Below, one piece after another: positions 6,752-20,920 of a stretch of 64,000 bases of DNA (its first letter is position 1; each line of letters begins with the position of its first letter). Below the pieces are notes generated by a model. The model had not been told where the DNA came from, searched no databases, and saw only the letters and a program-made list of their open reading frames with translations. The translations under genes were made by a program, and so were the position numbers. This DNA is from Bacteroides sp. (GTDB taxonomy: Bacteria; Bacteroidota; Bacteroidia; Bacteroidales; Muribaculaceae), in NCBI GenBank assembly GCA_014801785.1, contig JAAVDN010000009.1, positions 1 through 64,000 on the forward strand, in the 5' to 3' direction.

Positions 6752-7223
6752 TAAAATCTTCTGCCACGCTCATCGCATTTTCAAGGTCATGCCGGCTACG
6801 GAGAATGTCTGCGATGGATTTAATATCATTTTTACGCTTCTCCTTGCTGGAGGGGTCATAAATATATTCCTTGTTACCGAATGTGACTCGTATTAGGAAT
6901 ATATTGTTGCGACAGATTGTCGCTATAGTTCCAGGGAACTTGATGATTGTTGCGGATTTGGCTATAAACCCTCCCTCGTTACGCATCGGTACCAGCGAAC
7001 AACTGTAAAGCGTATTAGGGATAATGTCTTTGAATATAGCTGTATCAACAAACACAATTTTCTTTTTACTCTCAGTTTCTCTACATCCTCTCCAACTTCC
7101 ATTGGATTTGACGACGAAACCATAGAGTTTATCTGCTACGTTATCAAGCCCTTTGTAGAACTTGATATTGGTTTTTATTCTTTGTGCCATATTATATTGC
7201 TGTTTATCAATTAGGGCATACAA
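6696..7223 (-). CDS. hypothetical protein
   Basis: ORF track. Confidence 0.6.
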   Translation of the reverse strand: MYALIDKQQYNMAQRIKTNIKFYKGLDNVADKLYGFVVKSNGSWRGCRETESKKKIVFVDTAIFKDIIPNTLYSCSLVPMRNEGGFIAKSATIIKFPGTIATICRNNIFLIRVTFGNKEYIYDPSSKEKRKNDIKSIADILRSRHDLENAMSVAEDFIDNACMVKRLYEQSQSNV

Positions 7224-13640: not shown

Positions 13641-14672
13641 TTACTTGCACCATTCTCTCTGCTTGGCTTCGATGTCGATATGGTTGGCGATCAAAAAGTC
13701 TTTCAGGACTCCGAAGAGCTTGTAGCCCTCAAAATCCTTGTCACTTACCAGATAGTTAAGATAAGCGATTGAAGCCTCCTGATTCATCTTCGGGAACACA
13801 CAGTCATGGAAGAGGATGAGGTTCTTCAATGTGAAGAAAGCACCGGCACCCTTATAGGCATCTTTGAAAGCCTTGGACTGCTCCATATCAAAGAACAGAC
13901 AGGTGGTTTTGACAGCCTGATAGAAGTTTGCGGCTGCCTTATGAAGTGCGCCGGGATTGCGGGTATTCTTGATTGATTTTACCAGTTTTTCAAGCGGAGC
14001 ATACACCTTTGTCTGAAGATCATCAACAAAGATGTCAGTGCCATCCAGACGGACGTAAGGAACACCTTTGCAACGGCGAATACGGAGCTTTCCGACAATC
14101 TCTTTAACGAGCTTGATATAGTCGGTTGCCATCTGGATTACCACGCCTCTGTTAAACCAGCGGTTACGTTCCGCATAGTTCTCTGGGTCATTGTTGAAGA
14201 GCTTGACCTGAACGCGCAGTTCTTCAACCACCATTTCCCACTGGTATTTGTAACCCTTACGGCGAAGAGCGGCAGTAAAACTGATAGGCTTGCCGGTCTT
14301 ATAGTCTTTTTCAGTCAGCATGTGAAAGACCTGAGCCATGATCCAGCGACGGAACAAACGGCGGTCAGGAATAGTACGGCTGGCTTTGATTGCTGCGAAT
14401 ATCGGGTCATCATCAGGAACTACTGAGAATTGACCATCATTGAGACGGCCGACCTCATAAGCACCGTTTGTGCCGCGAATAGAGAAGAGGTTGGCTACGT
14501 TGACACCGGCACTGCGGAGGGCTTCGATTTTGGCCTCTGCATCATTGAGTTTCTTGGCCGGGAATGTGGCGACGGGGATTGCAGCGACAGGGGCTATTAC
14601 TGCTACGACTTCAGGTGCGTTGATCTTGATGTTAGTGCCACACTTAGGGCATTTTACACTCAGTTTCTTCAT
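13641..14672 (-). CDS. hypothetical protein with N-terminal CPKC motif
   Basis: MKKLSVKCPKCGTNIKINAPE; 343 aa. Confidence 0.65.
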   Translation of the reverse strand: MKKLSVKCPKCGTNIKINAPEVVAVIAPVAAIPVATFPAKKLNDAEAKIEALRSAGVNVANLFSIRGTNGAYEVGRLNDGQFSVVPDDDPIFAAIKASRTIPDRRLFRRWIMAQVFHMLTEKDYKTGKPISFTAALRRKGYKYQWEMVVEELRVQVKLFNNDPENYAERNRWFNRGVVIQMATDYIKLVKEIVGKLRIRRCKGVPYVRLDGTDIFVDDLQTKVYAPLEKLVKSIKNTRNPGALHKAAANFYQAVKTTCLFFDMEQSKAFKDAYKGAGAFFTLKNLILFHDCVFPKMNQEASIAYLNYLVSDKDFEGYKLFGVLKDFLIANHIDIEAKQREWCK

Positions 14673-14690
14673 TTTGATATTATTTTAATG

Positions 14691-15152
14691 TTATTTATTT
14701 TCAGTTTTAGGTTCGACCCATTCTTTAAGAATAATGAGGTCTTTCACGTTAGGGCTTTGCCAGAACCATTTGTCCTTGGCAAATTCATCCCATTTCAGAG
14801 AGCCGTTCAAAATCATTATCAGAACATAAAGTTCCAACTTAATCTGAGCTGTTTCCCTTGGCTCTCCATAAAGCATATCATCATCTGTCAGTTCGTGTTC
14901 TGGAAGAGCGTTAAAGTATCTGTACCTTTTGTTATCGCTTCTTTCAGAGGGCAAGCTGTGCTGATAGCGGAGAAACAGTTGAGTGATGGTTAACAGAGGG
15001 TCAAGGGAGGCTTCAAGTCCCAATTCACCTTCATATTCACCATTCTTGATGACATATTTGCCATCAATTTTTAGACTCCTTTGCTGAAAGTCAATATGGA
15101 ACTTTGCTCCATTTTGAACTTTTGCTATTGCTTCATAATAGATGGTTTGCAT
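14691..15152 (-). CDS. hypothetical protein
   Basis: ORF track. Confidence 0.6.
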   Translation of the reverse strand: MQTIYYEAIAKVQNGAKFHIDFQQRSLKIDGKYVIKNGEYEGELGLEASLDPLLTITQLFLRYQHSLPSERSDNKRYRYFNALPEHELTDDDMLYGEPRETAQIKLELYVLIMILNGSLKWDEFAKDKWFWQSPNVKDLIILKEWVEPKTENK

Positions 15153-15189
15153 TTGATTTGTTAGTTAAAAAATTATAATCTCATTGGCT

Positions 15190-15318
15190 TGGCACATTTC
15201 TTTACTGAGTCGATTGTAGAGCTTGGATAGACTGGTACCGAATCGACAAAGCCAGGTGGTTAACCTGGCTTTGTCGCTTTTGGATCCAGTATTACATCCA
15301 GCTCTTTATAAATTGCCA
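15190..15318 (-). ncRNA. array unit A (most RT-distal)
   Basis: 13-bp apical stem CGACAAAGCCAGG/CCTGGCTTTGTCG (15244-15276); core 15190-15214; outer TGGCA/TGCCA; middle GAGCTtGGAT/ATCCAGCTC. Confidence 0.75.
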
Positions 15319-15352
15319 GTCTTGATTATGTTCCTTTGTGCTGAGGTTGTAT

Positions 15353-15508
15353 AGTTCTCAAAAACAATGATGCGTTTCTTTATTGTACTGATGGAATCCA
15401 GACGGATGACTCAGGTAGAACCGGCGTGAGAGCCTGATAAGGATTGAAACGCCGGTTCTACCTGAGTCATATTGACAATCTGGATGACTGAATTTTGCTT
15501 TCTTGAAC
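15353..15508 (-). ncRNA. array unit B
   Basis: 22-bp perfect stem ATGACTCAGGTAGAACCGGCGT (15406-15427) / 15449-15470; core 15368-15392; weaker outer GTTC/GAAC. Confidence 0.7.
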
Positions 15509-15536
15509 CATAATGTCGCATTACTAAGCTACTGAA

Positions 15537-15649
15537 GATGATGTGGTATATTTCTTTAGCTGTCTGATGTCGGGGCTTTATGGCTGCCGCTGGAGGGTAG
15601 GTATGGCCTACAGCGGCAGCTTAATGAAGCCCAAACTAAATTTATCATC
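15537..15649 (-). ncRNA. array unit C
   Basis: GCTGCCGCTG/CAGCGGCAGC and GGGCTT/GAAGCCC stems; core 15544-15568; TTTAG/CTAAA and GATGAT/ATCATC outer stems. Confidence 0.75.
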
Positions 15650-15691
15650 TCTCAGGTTGCCGCCATATACTTGGCTTATAATATCTGTCAT

Positions 15692-15822
15692 GTCAGTGAT
15701 ATGTCGCTTTATTAGTTTGATATTCTACAGAATATCTCAGATGGGCCAGTGAAAGTCATCTCTGACAAGAGATGATGGAACTTGGCCCATCTTGGCATCT
15801 TCTGTATAATTAAATGATTGAC
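15692..15822 (-). ncRNA. array unit D
   Basis: AGATGGGCCA/TGGCCCATCT and TCATCTCT-GACA-AGAGATGA; core 15697-15721; TTTATTA/TAATtAAA and GTCA/TGAC outer stems. Confidence 0.72.
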
Positions 15823-15860
15823 CCTTCAGATAAGACCGCATATTCGGTAATTGATAGTCA

Positions 15861-15982
15861 GACAATATCGTGTGTTACTTTAGATGTTCGATGTCAGAAG
15901 GATCCTGCCATACTGTTGGCCACGGAAAGCGATAGCTCCTGGCCCACAGTAGGGTTGTTGATCCTTCACTGAAAAGATTGTC
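15861..15982 (-). ncRNA. array unit E (RT-proximal)
   Basis: GAAGGATC/GATCCTTC plus inner ACTGTTGGCC/GGCCCACAGT; core 15868-15892; CTTT/AAAG and GACAAT/ATTGTC outer stems. Confidence 0.75.
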
Positions 15983-16020
15983 GTTCTATCAGTCATTGCA
16001 CACTCAATCTATACTTTATA

Positions 16021-17292
16021 TCATTTTCGATTAAGATTGGCCACCAGAGTCTTATAGACTTCTTTACTGGTGTGGAGAGCATTTTGCATACATCCCAGAG
16101 TATAGTAGCCTGGAAGCGTTTTGTCGGTTTTAATACGATTTGCCTTTACATTCCGACCAAGGCCACGCTGAATACAGCAATCAGGATTATTTGCTACATA
16201 ACCCAGACCACCAACTTTTGTTTTGCCGGTCATCACTGCTCGCAAGCAGTCCGCAACAAACACAGAGAGTATCTGAATGTCTTTATTTACATTGATGACC
16301 GGGAGAACCTGAGTGGCCCAGCTATATTCGCCATTGCCGATATACAGATAATTATTCACCTGATTGATGGCTCTATTGTAGCTTTTACTCTCAGCACGAA
16401 TTGTCCGTGCCTCAATTTCCTTTTGAAAGGCTTTGATTCTTGTGGAACTGAGTGAAATGGAAGCTCCTTTGATAGAAAATCCGAGAAACTTGAACCAACG
16501 AGTGTGTGTCAAATACTCAATCTTTTTAGGATTAAGCGTCATTTCTCGCATTGCAACTTCTTCAGACATAATTTCCATTGCTCTTATATAATCTGGTCCT
16601 ACAAACAGGGCGTCATCAGAATAGCGGACATATTCACCATCCAGCTTGCTCAGTCGCTCATCCAGACTAAACATTACCACGTTGGCTAACCAAGAGGCTA
16701 CTGAGCAACCTTGTTTGAGGGACTGGTAGGATTTCTGGAGATTGCCGTCTGCATCAAAATACCAGTCGGAATGATAATATTTGCGAAGTACATCTATGAT
16801 AGCTGAATGACCATATTTGGCTTCAACTTTATCAAAGGCTTCATCAATAAACCGAATGGGTACCGAGTCGAAATATTTGCTGAAGTCAGATTTCCATCCG
16901 ATAATCTCACCCTTTGTCTCACAAATTTTCCGAGATATTTCTTTCACGATCTTGCCACATCCAATACCTTTTTGGTAGGACTGGCAAGCCGGATGAATCA
17001 TCTCTGGCATAAGTTCAAACAAGAGGTCATTGGCAATGCTGAGAAATACGCGGTCAACCGGCTCATTGATATAGACGGTTCGGAAATCTCCGTTATCTTT
17101 TGGAATCTGTGCTGTATGGGGCGGAGCAATTTCATACTTACCATCCCGAATAACAGCATACATGGCGGCCCTGGTCTCAGGTTTGGTAAGCTGGTAGAGA
17201 TGGGCTTTATTGATATGTTTCCCGACACCCTTGTCAATGGCATACGTCCAGCGTTTGATGTCGAAGAACATCTCTAATATTTTATCATTCAT
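16021..17292 (-). CDS. reverse transcriptase (RVT_1-like), class uncertain
   Basis: 423 aa; IPKDNGDFRTVYI, GWKSDFSKYFDSVP, SLKQGCSVASWLANVV, EYVRYSDDALFVG (catalytic YSDD), FKFLGFSIKG; no retron VTG motif and no DGR-type GxxxSQ motif seen. Confidence 0.9.
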   Translation of the reverse strand: MNDKILEMFFDIKRWTYAIDKGVGKHINKAHLYQLTKPETRAAMYAVIRDGKYEIAPPHTAQIPKDNGDFRTVYINEPVDRVFLSIANDLLFELMPEMIHPACQSYQKGIGCGKIVKEISRKICETKGEIIGWKSDFSKYFDSVPIRFIDEAFDKVEAKYGHSAIIDVLRKYYHSDWYFDADGNLQKSYQSLKQGCSVASWLANVVMFSLDERLSKLDGEYVRYSDDALFVGPDYIRAMEIMSEEVAMREMTLNPKKIEYLTHTRWFKFLGFSIKGASISLSSTRIKAFQKEIEARTIRAESKSYNRAINQVNNYLYIGNGEYSWATQVLPVINVNKDIQILSVFVADCLRAVMTGKTKVGGLGYVANNPDCCIQRGLGRNVKANRIKTDKTLPGYYTLGCMQNALHTSKEVYKTLVANLNRK

Positions 17293-20209: not shown

Positions 20210-20920
20210 TTAATGAAATGCTGCCACAGCCCGGATGTAGCCGCTGTTCGACATCTTAGCATGCCAGCCGAGGAAGCCAGAGGAGAGGCCCAAGTACCAA
20301 GCGTACGCCGCCGAGACCTCAGTGCTGGTCCAGTACCAAACATCTTTTATGCGGCTACCGCCGCATAGTTCGATGGCGGCATTGATTGACCGCTTATTGA
20401 GATAGATGAGGTAGAGTTCAGCGACTGACGGAATCCACTCGTCATCCTTCAGTTCTATGCCGGTTCCGATAGACTTGATGTGCTCAATGTTGACCTTACC
20501 ATTCCAGTCAGCAACTGCATCCTCACATTCTGAAATGTAGCCGGCATAATTGGTTTTGTCTTTCTGATTGATAAGGGGCCGCTCCGGGTAGTCCTCCAGA
20601 TTAACTGCGAGAGCATGGCTGCCCATCACTACGCCGATACGCTGGACGGTCTTTGTTGGAGCGTTGCGCTTCTGATAGTCAAACATTTCCGATGTGCCGT
20701 CCTCATAGAGATAATACACTCCATCAGTGGTGAGAACTTCACCAGGAATGTGGACGGGCTGGACGGTTACATTGACTTCCTCGCTTTCTTTGACGGGAGA
20801 TTTGATGAAGTCATACACTGTCTGTGCTTCTTCACCAAAGTCATTGTAGAGAGCGAGTTTCAGCTTCTCATCTGTCGGGAGAGAATCATAGATTGCTTTT
20901 GCGATTTCGTCTGAGATCAT
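20210..20920 (-). CDS. protein with DUF1566/C-type lectin-like C-terminus resembling a DGR variable protein
   Basis: C-terminus DVWYWTSTEVSAAYAWYLGLSSGFLGWHAKMSNSGYIRAVAAFH; many NNC codons at candidate variable positions. Confidence 0.75.
   Translation of the reverse strand: MISDEIAKAIYDSLPTDEKLKLALYNDFGEEAQTVYDFIKSPVKESEEVNVTVQPVHIPGEVLTTDGVYYLYEDGTSEMFDYQKRNAPTKTVQRIGVVMGSHALAVNLEDYPERPLINQKDKTNYAGYISECEDAVADWNGKVNIEHIKSIGTGIELKDDEWIPSVAELYLIYLNKRSINAAIELCGGSRIKDVWYWTSTEVSAAYAWYLGLSSGFLGWHAKMSNSGYIRAVAAFH

Follow-up and report, generated by a model that had tools for sequence, protein, structure and literature searches.

Between a reverse transcriptase (RT) gene of the UG27 family and the genes of its partner proteins RTas346 and RTas337, a Muribaculaceae genome (Bacteroides sp., GCA_014801785.1) carries a stretch in which a 25-nucleotide (nt) core motif occurs five times on the minus strand. 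The original prediction, made from the 64,000 nt that we call the window (positions 1-64,000 of contig JAAVDN010000009.1), regarded this core as selectively conserved and proposed that it is a recognition site for a protein or the RT, which raises the question of what the repeated stretch is. We find that it is a tandem array of five predicted structured non-coding RNA (ncRNA) units (15168-16008, minus strand), as indicated by pseudoknot complementarity and covariation across homologous arrays. The array probably consists of ncRNAs resembling those of Class 2 defence-associated reverse transcriptases (DRTs), bound by the RT and likely to serve as templates in a presumed anti-phage system.

The conserved core

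The five 25-mers lie at 15868-15892, 15697-15721, 15544-15568, 15368-15392 and 15190-15214 on the minus strand, as had been predicted, and recur at a spacing of 153-178 bp. The pattern ATCN7TAAAGNNAYRYRY has five matches in the 64-kb window, every one inside the array; in 100 dinucleotide-shuffled versions of that sequence it averaged 0.01 matches and never reached five. A position weight matrix (PWM) scan of both strands of the window likewise returned the five array cores as the only strong sites. Equally strong motifs in shuffled sequence, or loss of the core from homologous arrays, had been named in advance as grounds for abandoning the idea; neither was found, and homologous arrays preserve the core. 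Selective conservation, five real units and an RT context are all borne out.

Other parts of the original prediction need correction. The ATC, the 7-nt interval and TAAAG were described as invariant, which holds for the units of the window but not for homologs: the 67 PWM hits yield ATCRA-N5-TANAG-NN-A-YRYRY-C-A as consensus, position 3 of TAAAG is A in 43 of them, T in 12, G in 7 and C in 5, and the spacing from ATC to TANAG is 7 in most units and 8 in some (unit 5 of homologous locus L003, and L012). The linkers, said not to be alignable, indeed fail to align in primary sequence, but they are structured rather than free spacers, holding a hairpin (P1), two P2 helices, the tetranucleotide UUYA and a further hairpin (P3).

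Pseudoknot and array shown by covariation

Each unit is about 150-180 nt long and reads, 5' to 3', as the P1 hairpin with a loop of 6-8 nt, P2a, a short AA, P2b, UUYA, the long variable hairpin P3, AUCR-N6-UAAAG-NN-A, YRYRY, and the 3' strands of P2b and then P2a. P1 is placed roughly 20-30 nt past the preceding core, and the YRYRY tract is complementary to the loop of this small hairpin, some 100-140 nt upstream in its own unit. All five units of the window follow this plan on the minus strand (P1 loops in brackets). Unit 1 (15849-16008) has P1 at 15995-16008, ATTG[AGTGTG]CAAT, P3 at about 15894-15972 and the pseudoknot GUGUG:CACAC. Unit 2 (15682-15848) has P1 at 15835-15848, ACCG[AATATG]CGGT, P3 at about 15726-15806 and AUAUG:CAUAU, and unit 3 (15530-15675) has P1 at 15662-15675, GCCA[AGTATA]TGGC, P3 at about 15569-15636 and GUAUA:UAUAC. 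For unit 4 (15350-15526) these elements are P1 at 15511-15526, TAGT[AATGCGAC]ATTA, P3 at about 15396-15485 and AUGCG:CGCAU; for unit 5 (15168-15346) they are P1 at 15333-15346, CCT[CAGCACAA]AGG, P3 at about 15218-15305 and GCACA:UGUGC. Every unit thus has its own type of loop:core pair, and since these pairs differ between units, each unit folds on itself.

With the core in hand, a P1 with a stem of at least 3 pairs was found in 64 of 66 units, a circular figure, as P1 was here chosen by its complementarity to the core; it is superseded by tests in which P1 was picked blind, by stem strength alone. Of 48 units, among them those of the near relatives L001 and L002, 43 had a blind P1 loop complementary to the core of the same unit; 2000 permutations averaged 8.1 such units and never exceeded 16. 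When the same loops were set against differing cores from other units of the same array, only 8/172 combinations were complementary. Covariation was scored on an alignment that again relied on blind P1 and held 48 units, L001 and L002 being excluded; in it 87% of pseudoknot cells and 95% of P1 cells were paired; the P1 rate is favoured by how P1 was picked, the pseudoknot rate is not. The covariation score was 0.975 compared with 0.324 ± 0.023 for shuffled data, sliding the partner reduced it to 0.24 or less, and all nine pairs in the alignment show changes on both sides. The pseudoknot and the array are shown by this covariation, and for fold and array alone we regard the matter as close to certain. 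It follows that the alternating pyrimidine/purine tract is conserved as a pseudoknot strand pairing with the P1 loop, not as sequence to be read. This tract, which covaries from unit to unit, drops out of the proposed recognition site; direct contact with the RT is still quite plausible for the unpaired invariant letters AUC, UANAG and UUYA.

P2a begins directly after P1 and its partner strand lies 9-10 nt past the core, and P2b is nested within P2a. With a unit's own strands the mean scores, 15.5 (P2a) and 13.2 (P2b), exceeded all 1000 permutations (maxima 10.5 and 10.4), in windows positioned from the core-guided P1 search. Of 50 units, 45 have UUYA at the foot of P3 on its 5' side, compared with 10.9 expected from shuffling. 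A descriptor combining P1, the pseudoknot, P3 and TANAG, run on both strands of the loci, matched UG27 units only and gave 0 matches in shuffles.

Constraint on the sequence differs from part to part. Between the window and L002, 2% of positions in pseudoknot strands and 3% in P2 differ, TAAAG and ATC show 0 differences, and P3 with its flank shows 10%. The N7 interval differs at 37% of positions against 48% of RT fourfold sites in this comparison, and at 63% against 60% in that with L004. Since its divergence is near the fourfold-site rate, N7 is nearly free in sequence and almost fixed in length. The inner arms of the unit 4 P3 (15406-15427 and 15449-15470, minus strand) form a perfect 22-bp hairpin in the window; its counterparts in L001 and L002 are imperfect, which looks like a recent gain of full pairing in the window.

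In unit 5 of the window the 3' strand of P2a is followed by a T-run. Such a run follows the last unit in most loci and is present in only 5/50 non-last units; since it marks last units and rarely others, the final P2a and T-run look like a transcription terminator ending the array. In L027 a run of about 28 T follows the last unit of the gap, which may have arisen in assembly or represent an exaggerated terminator. No Rfam family matched in the window, and the array DNA had no blastn match among phage or plasmid records.

Homologous systems and gene neighbourhood

On the minus strand of the window the array is preceded by the UG27 RT (16021-17292; 423 aa, YSDD active site) and followed by RTas346 (14691-15152; 153 aa) and RTas337 (13641-14672; 343 aa, with an N-terminal CxxC zinc-ribbon-like segment), the latter two being RT-associated proteins in the PADLOC listing. 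The RT matches PADLOC RT_UG27 (E 6.2e-229, 420/420 profile positions) and Pfam RVT_1 (E 1e-19), and the partners match the PADLOC models RTas346 (E 1.5e-68) and RTas337 (E 1.2e-138) over their full length. The next-best specific models for the RT are UG26, Drt9 and UG17, a family now called DRT10 (PMC12632851); retron models score far behind UG27 in the profile comparison, and a profile search from the RT recovered the solved DRT9, DRT2 and Drt3a. The AlphaFold2 models of RTas346 (pLDDT 90) and RTas337 (pLDDT 76.5) found no relative in the PDB at E <= 0.001.

The homologous systems compared have RTs of 48-97% identity and include the near-duplicate pairs L013/L034 and L002/L026. RT_UG27 was matched by 17/17 RT homologs and RTas337 by 15/15 homologs of that protein, and the order RT, units, RTas346, RTas337 is retained as far as the contigs extend. 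The gap between RT and RTas346 ranges from 143 to 1394 nt. It holds one unit in L029, L030 and L032, two in L031 and L033, four in L005, five in the window, L001-L004 and L034/L013, about eight in L012, L027 and L028, and at least two in the divergent L006. Past RTas337 there are about six more units in L005 (L005:8640-9580) and one in L034 (near 7170-7210); in both loci the last unit ahead of RTas346 is without a T-run, and the array can thus resume beyond the partner genes. Systems accordingly contain from one to about ten units.

A tree of the RTs recovers two clades, the multi-unit systems (98/97) and L029-L032 (100/99), with L033 on a long branch. The P3 region spans 28-41 nt where a system has one or two units, with only 8-10 bp of P3 in single-unit systems; elsewhere it mostly reaches 70-110 nt or more. 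The N-terminal CxxC segment of RTas337 and a central insertion are present in the multi-unit clade and missing from the one- and two-unit clade (window compared with L029, L031 and L032). These extra segments go in step with the longer P3, which suggests a possible link between them.

Across 398 genomes from the host family, UG27 loci are the only places where the core pattern clusters; other matches are isolated. Close relatives come from Bacteroidales, many from the same family as the window, with Muribaculaceae among the named ones, and from Bacteroides phage BS-TP1, whose UG27 RT (PQ571274.1, 79351-80613) is labelled 'tail protein', probably a misannotation. Phage-type genes in the window encode portal, head protease, tail sheath, baseplate hub and integrase. 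Between 41330 and 63880 the myovirus-like structural genes comprise the portal, the head protease, two sheath-like proteins, a probable tape measure of 2605 aa and the baseplate hub, and from these genes we take the carrier of the UG27 system to be a myovirus-like phage or prophage.

A second retroelement lies on the same contig. A DUF1566/Lcl_C gene upstream of the RT operon (20210-20920, minus strand) carries the variable repeat of an ordinary diversity-generating retroelement, whose adenine-rich template repeat and own RT are found near 72.6-74 kb of the contig (G000:C9; L009, L035), about 52 kb from the variable repeat, with differences mostly at template adenines. This element was considered as an explanation of the array and rejected: the variable repeat has no match to the array, and its template repeat adjoins a different RT outside the window.

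Proposed function and comparison with known systems

Family membership and anatomy suggest how the system may work. The units very probably represent ncRNA bound by the RT, which would hold each of them through the invariant unpaired letters. The stretch between P3, as boundary stem, and the pseudoknot would then be copied, as Class 2 DRTs do with a single ncRNA, a placement proposed because the layout matches DRT2 and telomerase RNA and the boundary stem matches DRT10; we advance this template assignment tentatively. RTas346 and RTas337 would serve as partners or effectors, and the targets of this phage-borne system would be competing phages, an anti-phage function that we consider likely. 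A bolder version, in which one RT is served by five to about ten self-insulated pseudoknot RNAs, each with its own short free-sequence template, so that one operon yields several short DNAs of differing sequence, or a mixed concatemer, instead of a single repeat, is speculative and we would not expect it to hold.

Several results weigh against the main interpretation. DRT10-type A-B-A' repeats are not enriched (26/42 units against 25.8 ± 2.7 expected for 3-mers, 7 against 6.6 for 4-mers), a column-identity scan for them was also negative, and the core consensus AUCRA-N5-UANAG has no conserved poly-U of the DRT9 type; together these weaken the case for templating by this stretch. A promoter consensus upstream of unit 1 was found only in L032, where the Bacteroides -7 box TANNTTTG occurs as TATCTTTG, 26 nt ahead of P1. 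In nine loci of UG26, the nearest sister profile, the descriptor found no unit within flanks of about 1.5 kb.

The absence of an A-B-A' pattern would suit a different role, in which the units serve as RNA scaffolds bringing several RT-RTas complexes together, as in the DRT9 hexamer, with N7 a mere spacer and no DNA templating. An N7 of almost fixed length that diverges near the fourfold-site rate (0.37 vs 0.48 for L002, 0.63 vs 0.60 for L004), arrays that reach about ten units, and the joint occurrence of longer P3 and longer RTas337 in the multi-unit clade agree with such scaffolds. However, since some systems have only one or two units, the basic function does not depend on multiplicity, and copying of the ncRNA is what the Class 2 relatives studied to date show (PMC13174585); we consider pure scaffolding unlikely. 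The units could also be retron-like msr-msd RNAs, P3 being the reverse-transcribed hairpin and the array a source of several different hairpin DNAs. P3 is long (up to 22 bp perfect), is the most length-variable part and has an RT adjoining it, but that RT belongs to UG27 with retron models far behind, P3 shrinks to 8-10 bp in single-unit systems, and it is clearly sequence-constrained (10% against 48% of fourfold sites, for L002), which makes retron-like units improbable.

The position of the array directly upstream of RTas346 and the terminator-like last P2 and T-run would be natural for a leader or attenuator controlling translation or transcription of RTas346 and RTas337; five to eight complete copies would be unexpected in an attenuator, and further units lie beyond RTas337 in L005 and L034, leaving this explanation very unlikely. 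The regular spacing of direct repeats within a mobile element might instead point to a double-stranded DNA binding site in five copies (operator, iteron or recombination site), with the hairpins incidental. Such a site needs no pairing, yet YRYRY varies by unit while complementing the hairpin loop upstream in its own unit, the P2 strands covary too, and the whole fold is kept in single-unit relatives; we give a DNA site almost no credence. Taken as a whole, an array of RT-bound ncRNA resembling that of Class 2 DRTs is the explanation that we consider likely.

By gene content this is the UG27 system, a candidate DRT defined in PADLOC as RT_UG27, RTas337 and RTas346, with the same RT and both partners matched at full length. 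No description of a UG27 ncRNA, tandem array or mechanism was found in the literature searched, which did not cover the UG/Abi survey defining these groups, so that an earlier mention of the ncRNA is possible; none of the relevant papers in that literature mentions UG27 by name. A narrow search for concatenated DRT ncRNAs turned up no paper, and in the literature found an RNA array of one to about ten copies is described for no system of this kind. The covarying units, predicted RNA lying between RT and RTas346, supply the adjacent structured ncRNA that is a feature of Class 2 DRTs, a class that includes DRT2, DRT9, DRT10 and DRT3a.

Among these, DRT10 (UG17), whose RT is of Class 2, a group to which the UG27 RT may belong, places its template 3' of a stable stem-loop (PMC12632851), much as a short variable unpaired stretch directly follows one here. 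Its A-B-A' repeat allows repeat addition, whereas the present system lacks A-B-A' enrichment, has no SLATT partner among the genes near the array, carries several units per locus and is paired with RTas346 and RTas337. DRT2 and telomerase RNA have the template between a stem on its 5' side and a pseudoknot on its 3' side (PMC12039810), a layout that corresponds to P3, core and pseudoknot here. The differences are that conserved unpaired UUYA, AUC and UANAG take the place of flanking ACA, that the pseudoknot pairs with an upstream hairpin loop, and that the units are tandem. DRT9 (UG28), the second-closest other RT profile, likewise has a structured ncRNA, which serves as scaffold and template (PMC12483538), but no conserved poly-U template is present here, and the units are concatenated, in contrast to the separate ncRNAs of the DRT9 hexamer.

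The uncharacterised UG27 family thereby gains a predicted RNA component with an exact fold model, its mechanism becomes directly testable, and a further RNA of the stem, putative template and pseudoknot type joins the comparison with telomerase RNA. If each unit does offer its own template, the system would perform antiviral reverse transcription from multiple templates, and one-unit and multi-unit relatives provide a ready comparison for the role of the RNA as template, scaffold or both. In the cited papers, DRTs with an ncRNA have one per RT; here one RT is accompanied by one to about ten concatenated units, every one of them insulated by its own pseudoknot code.
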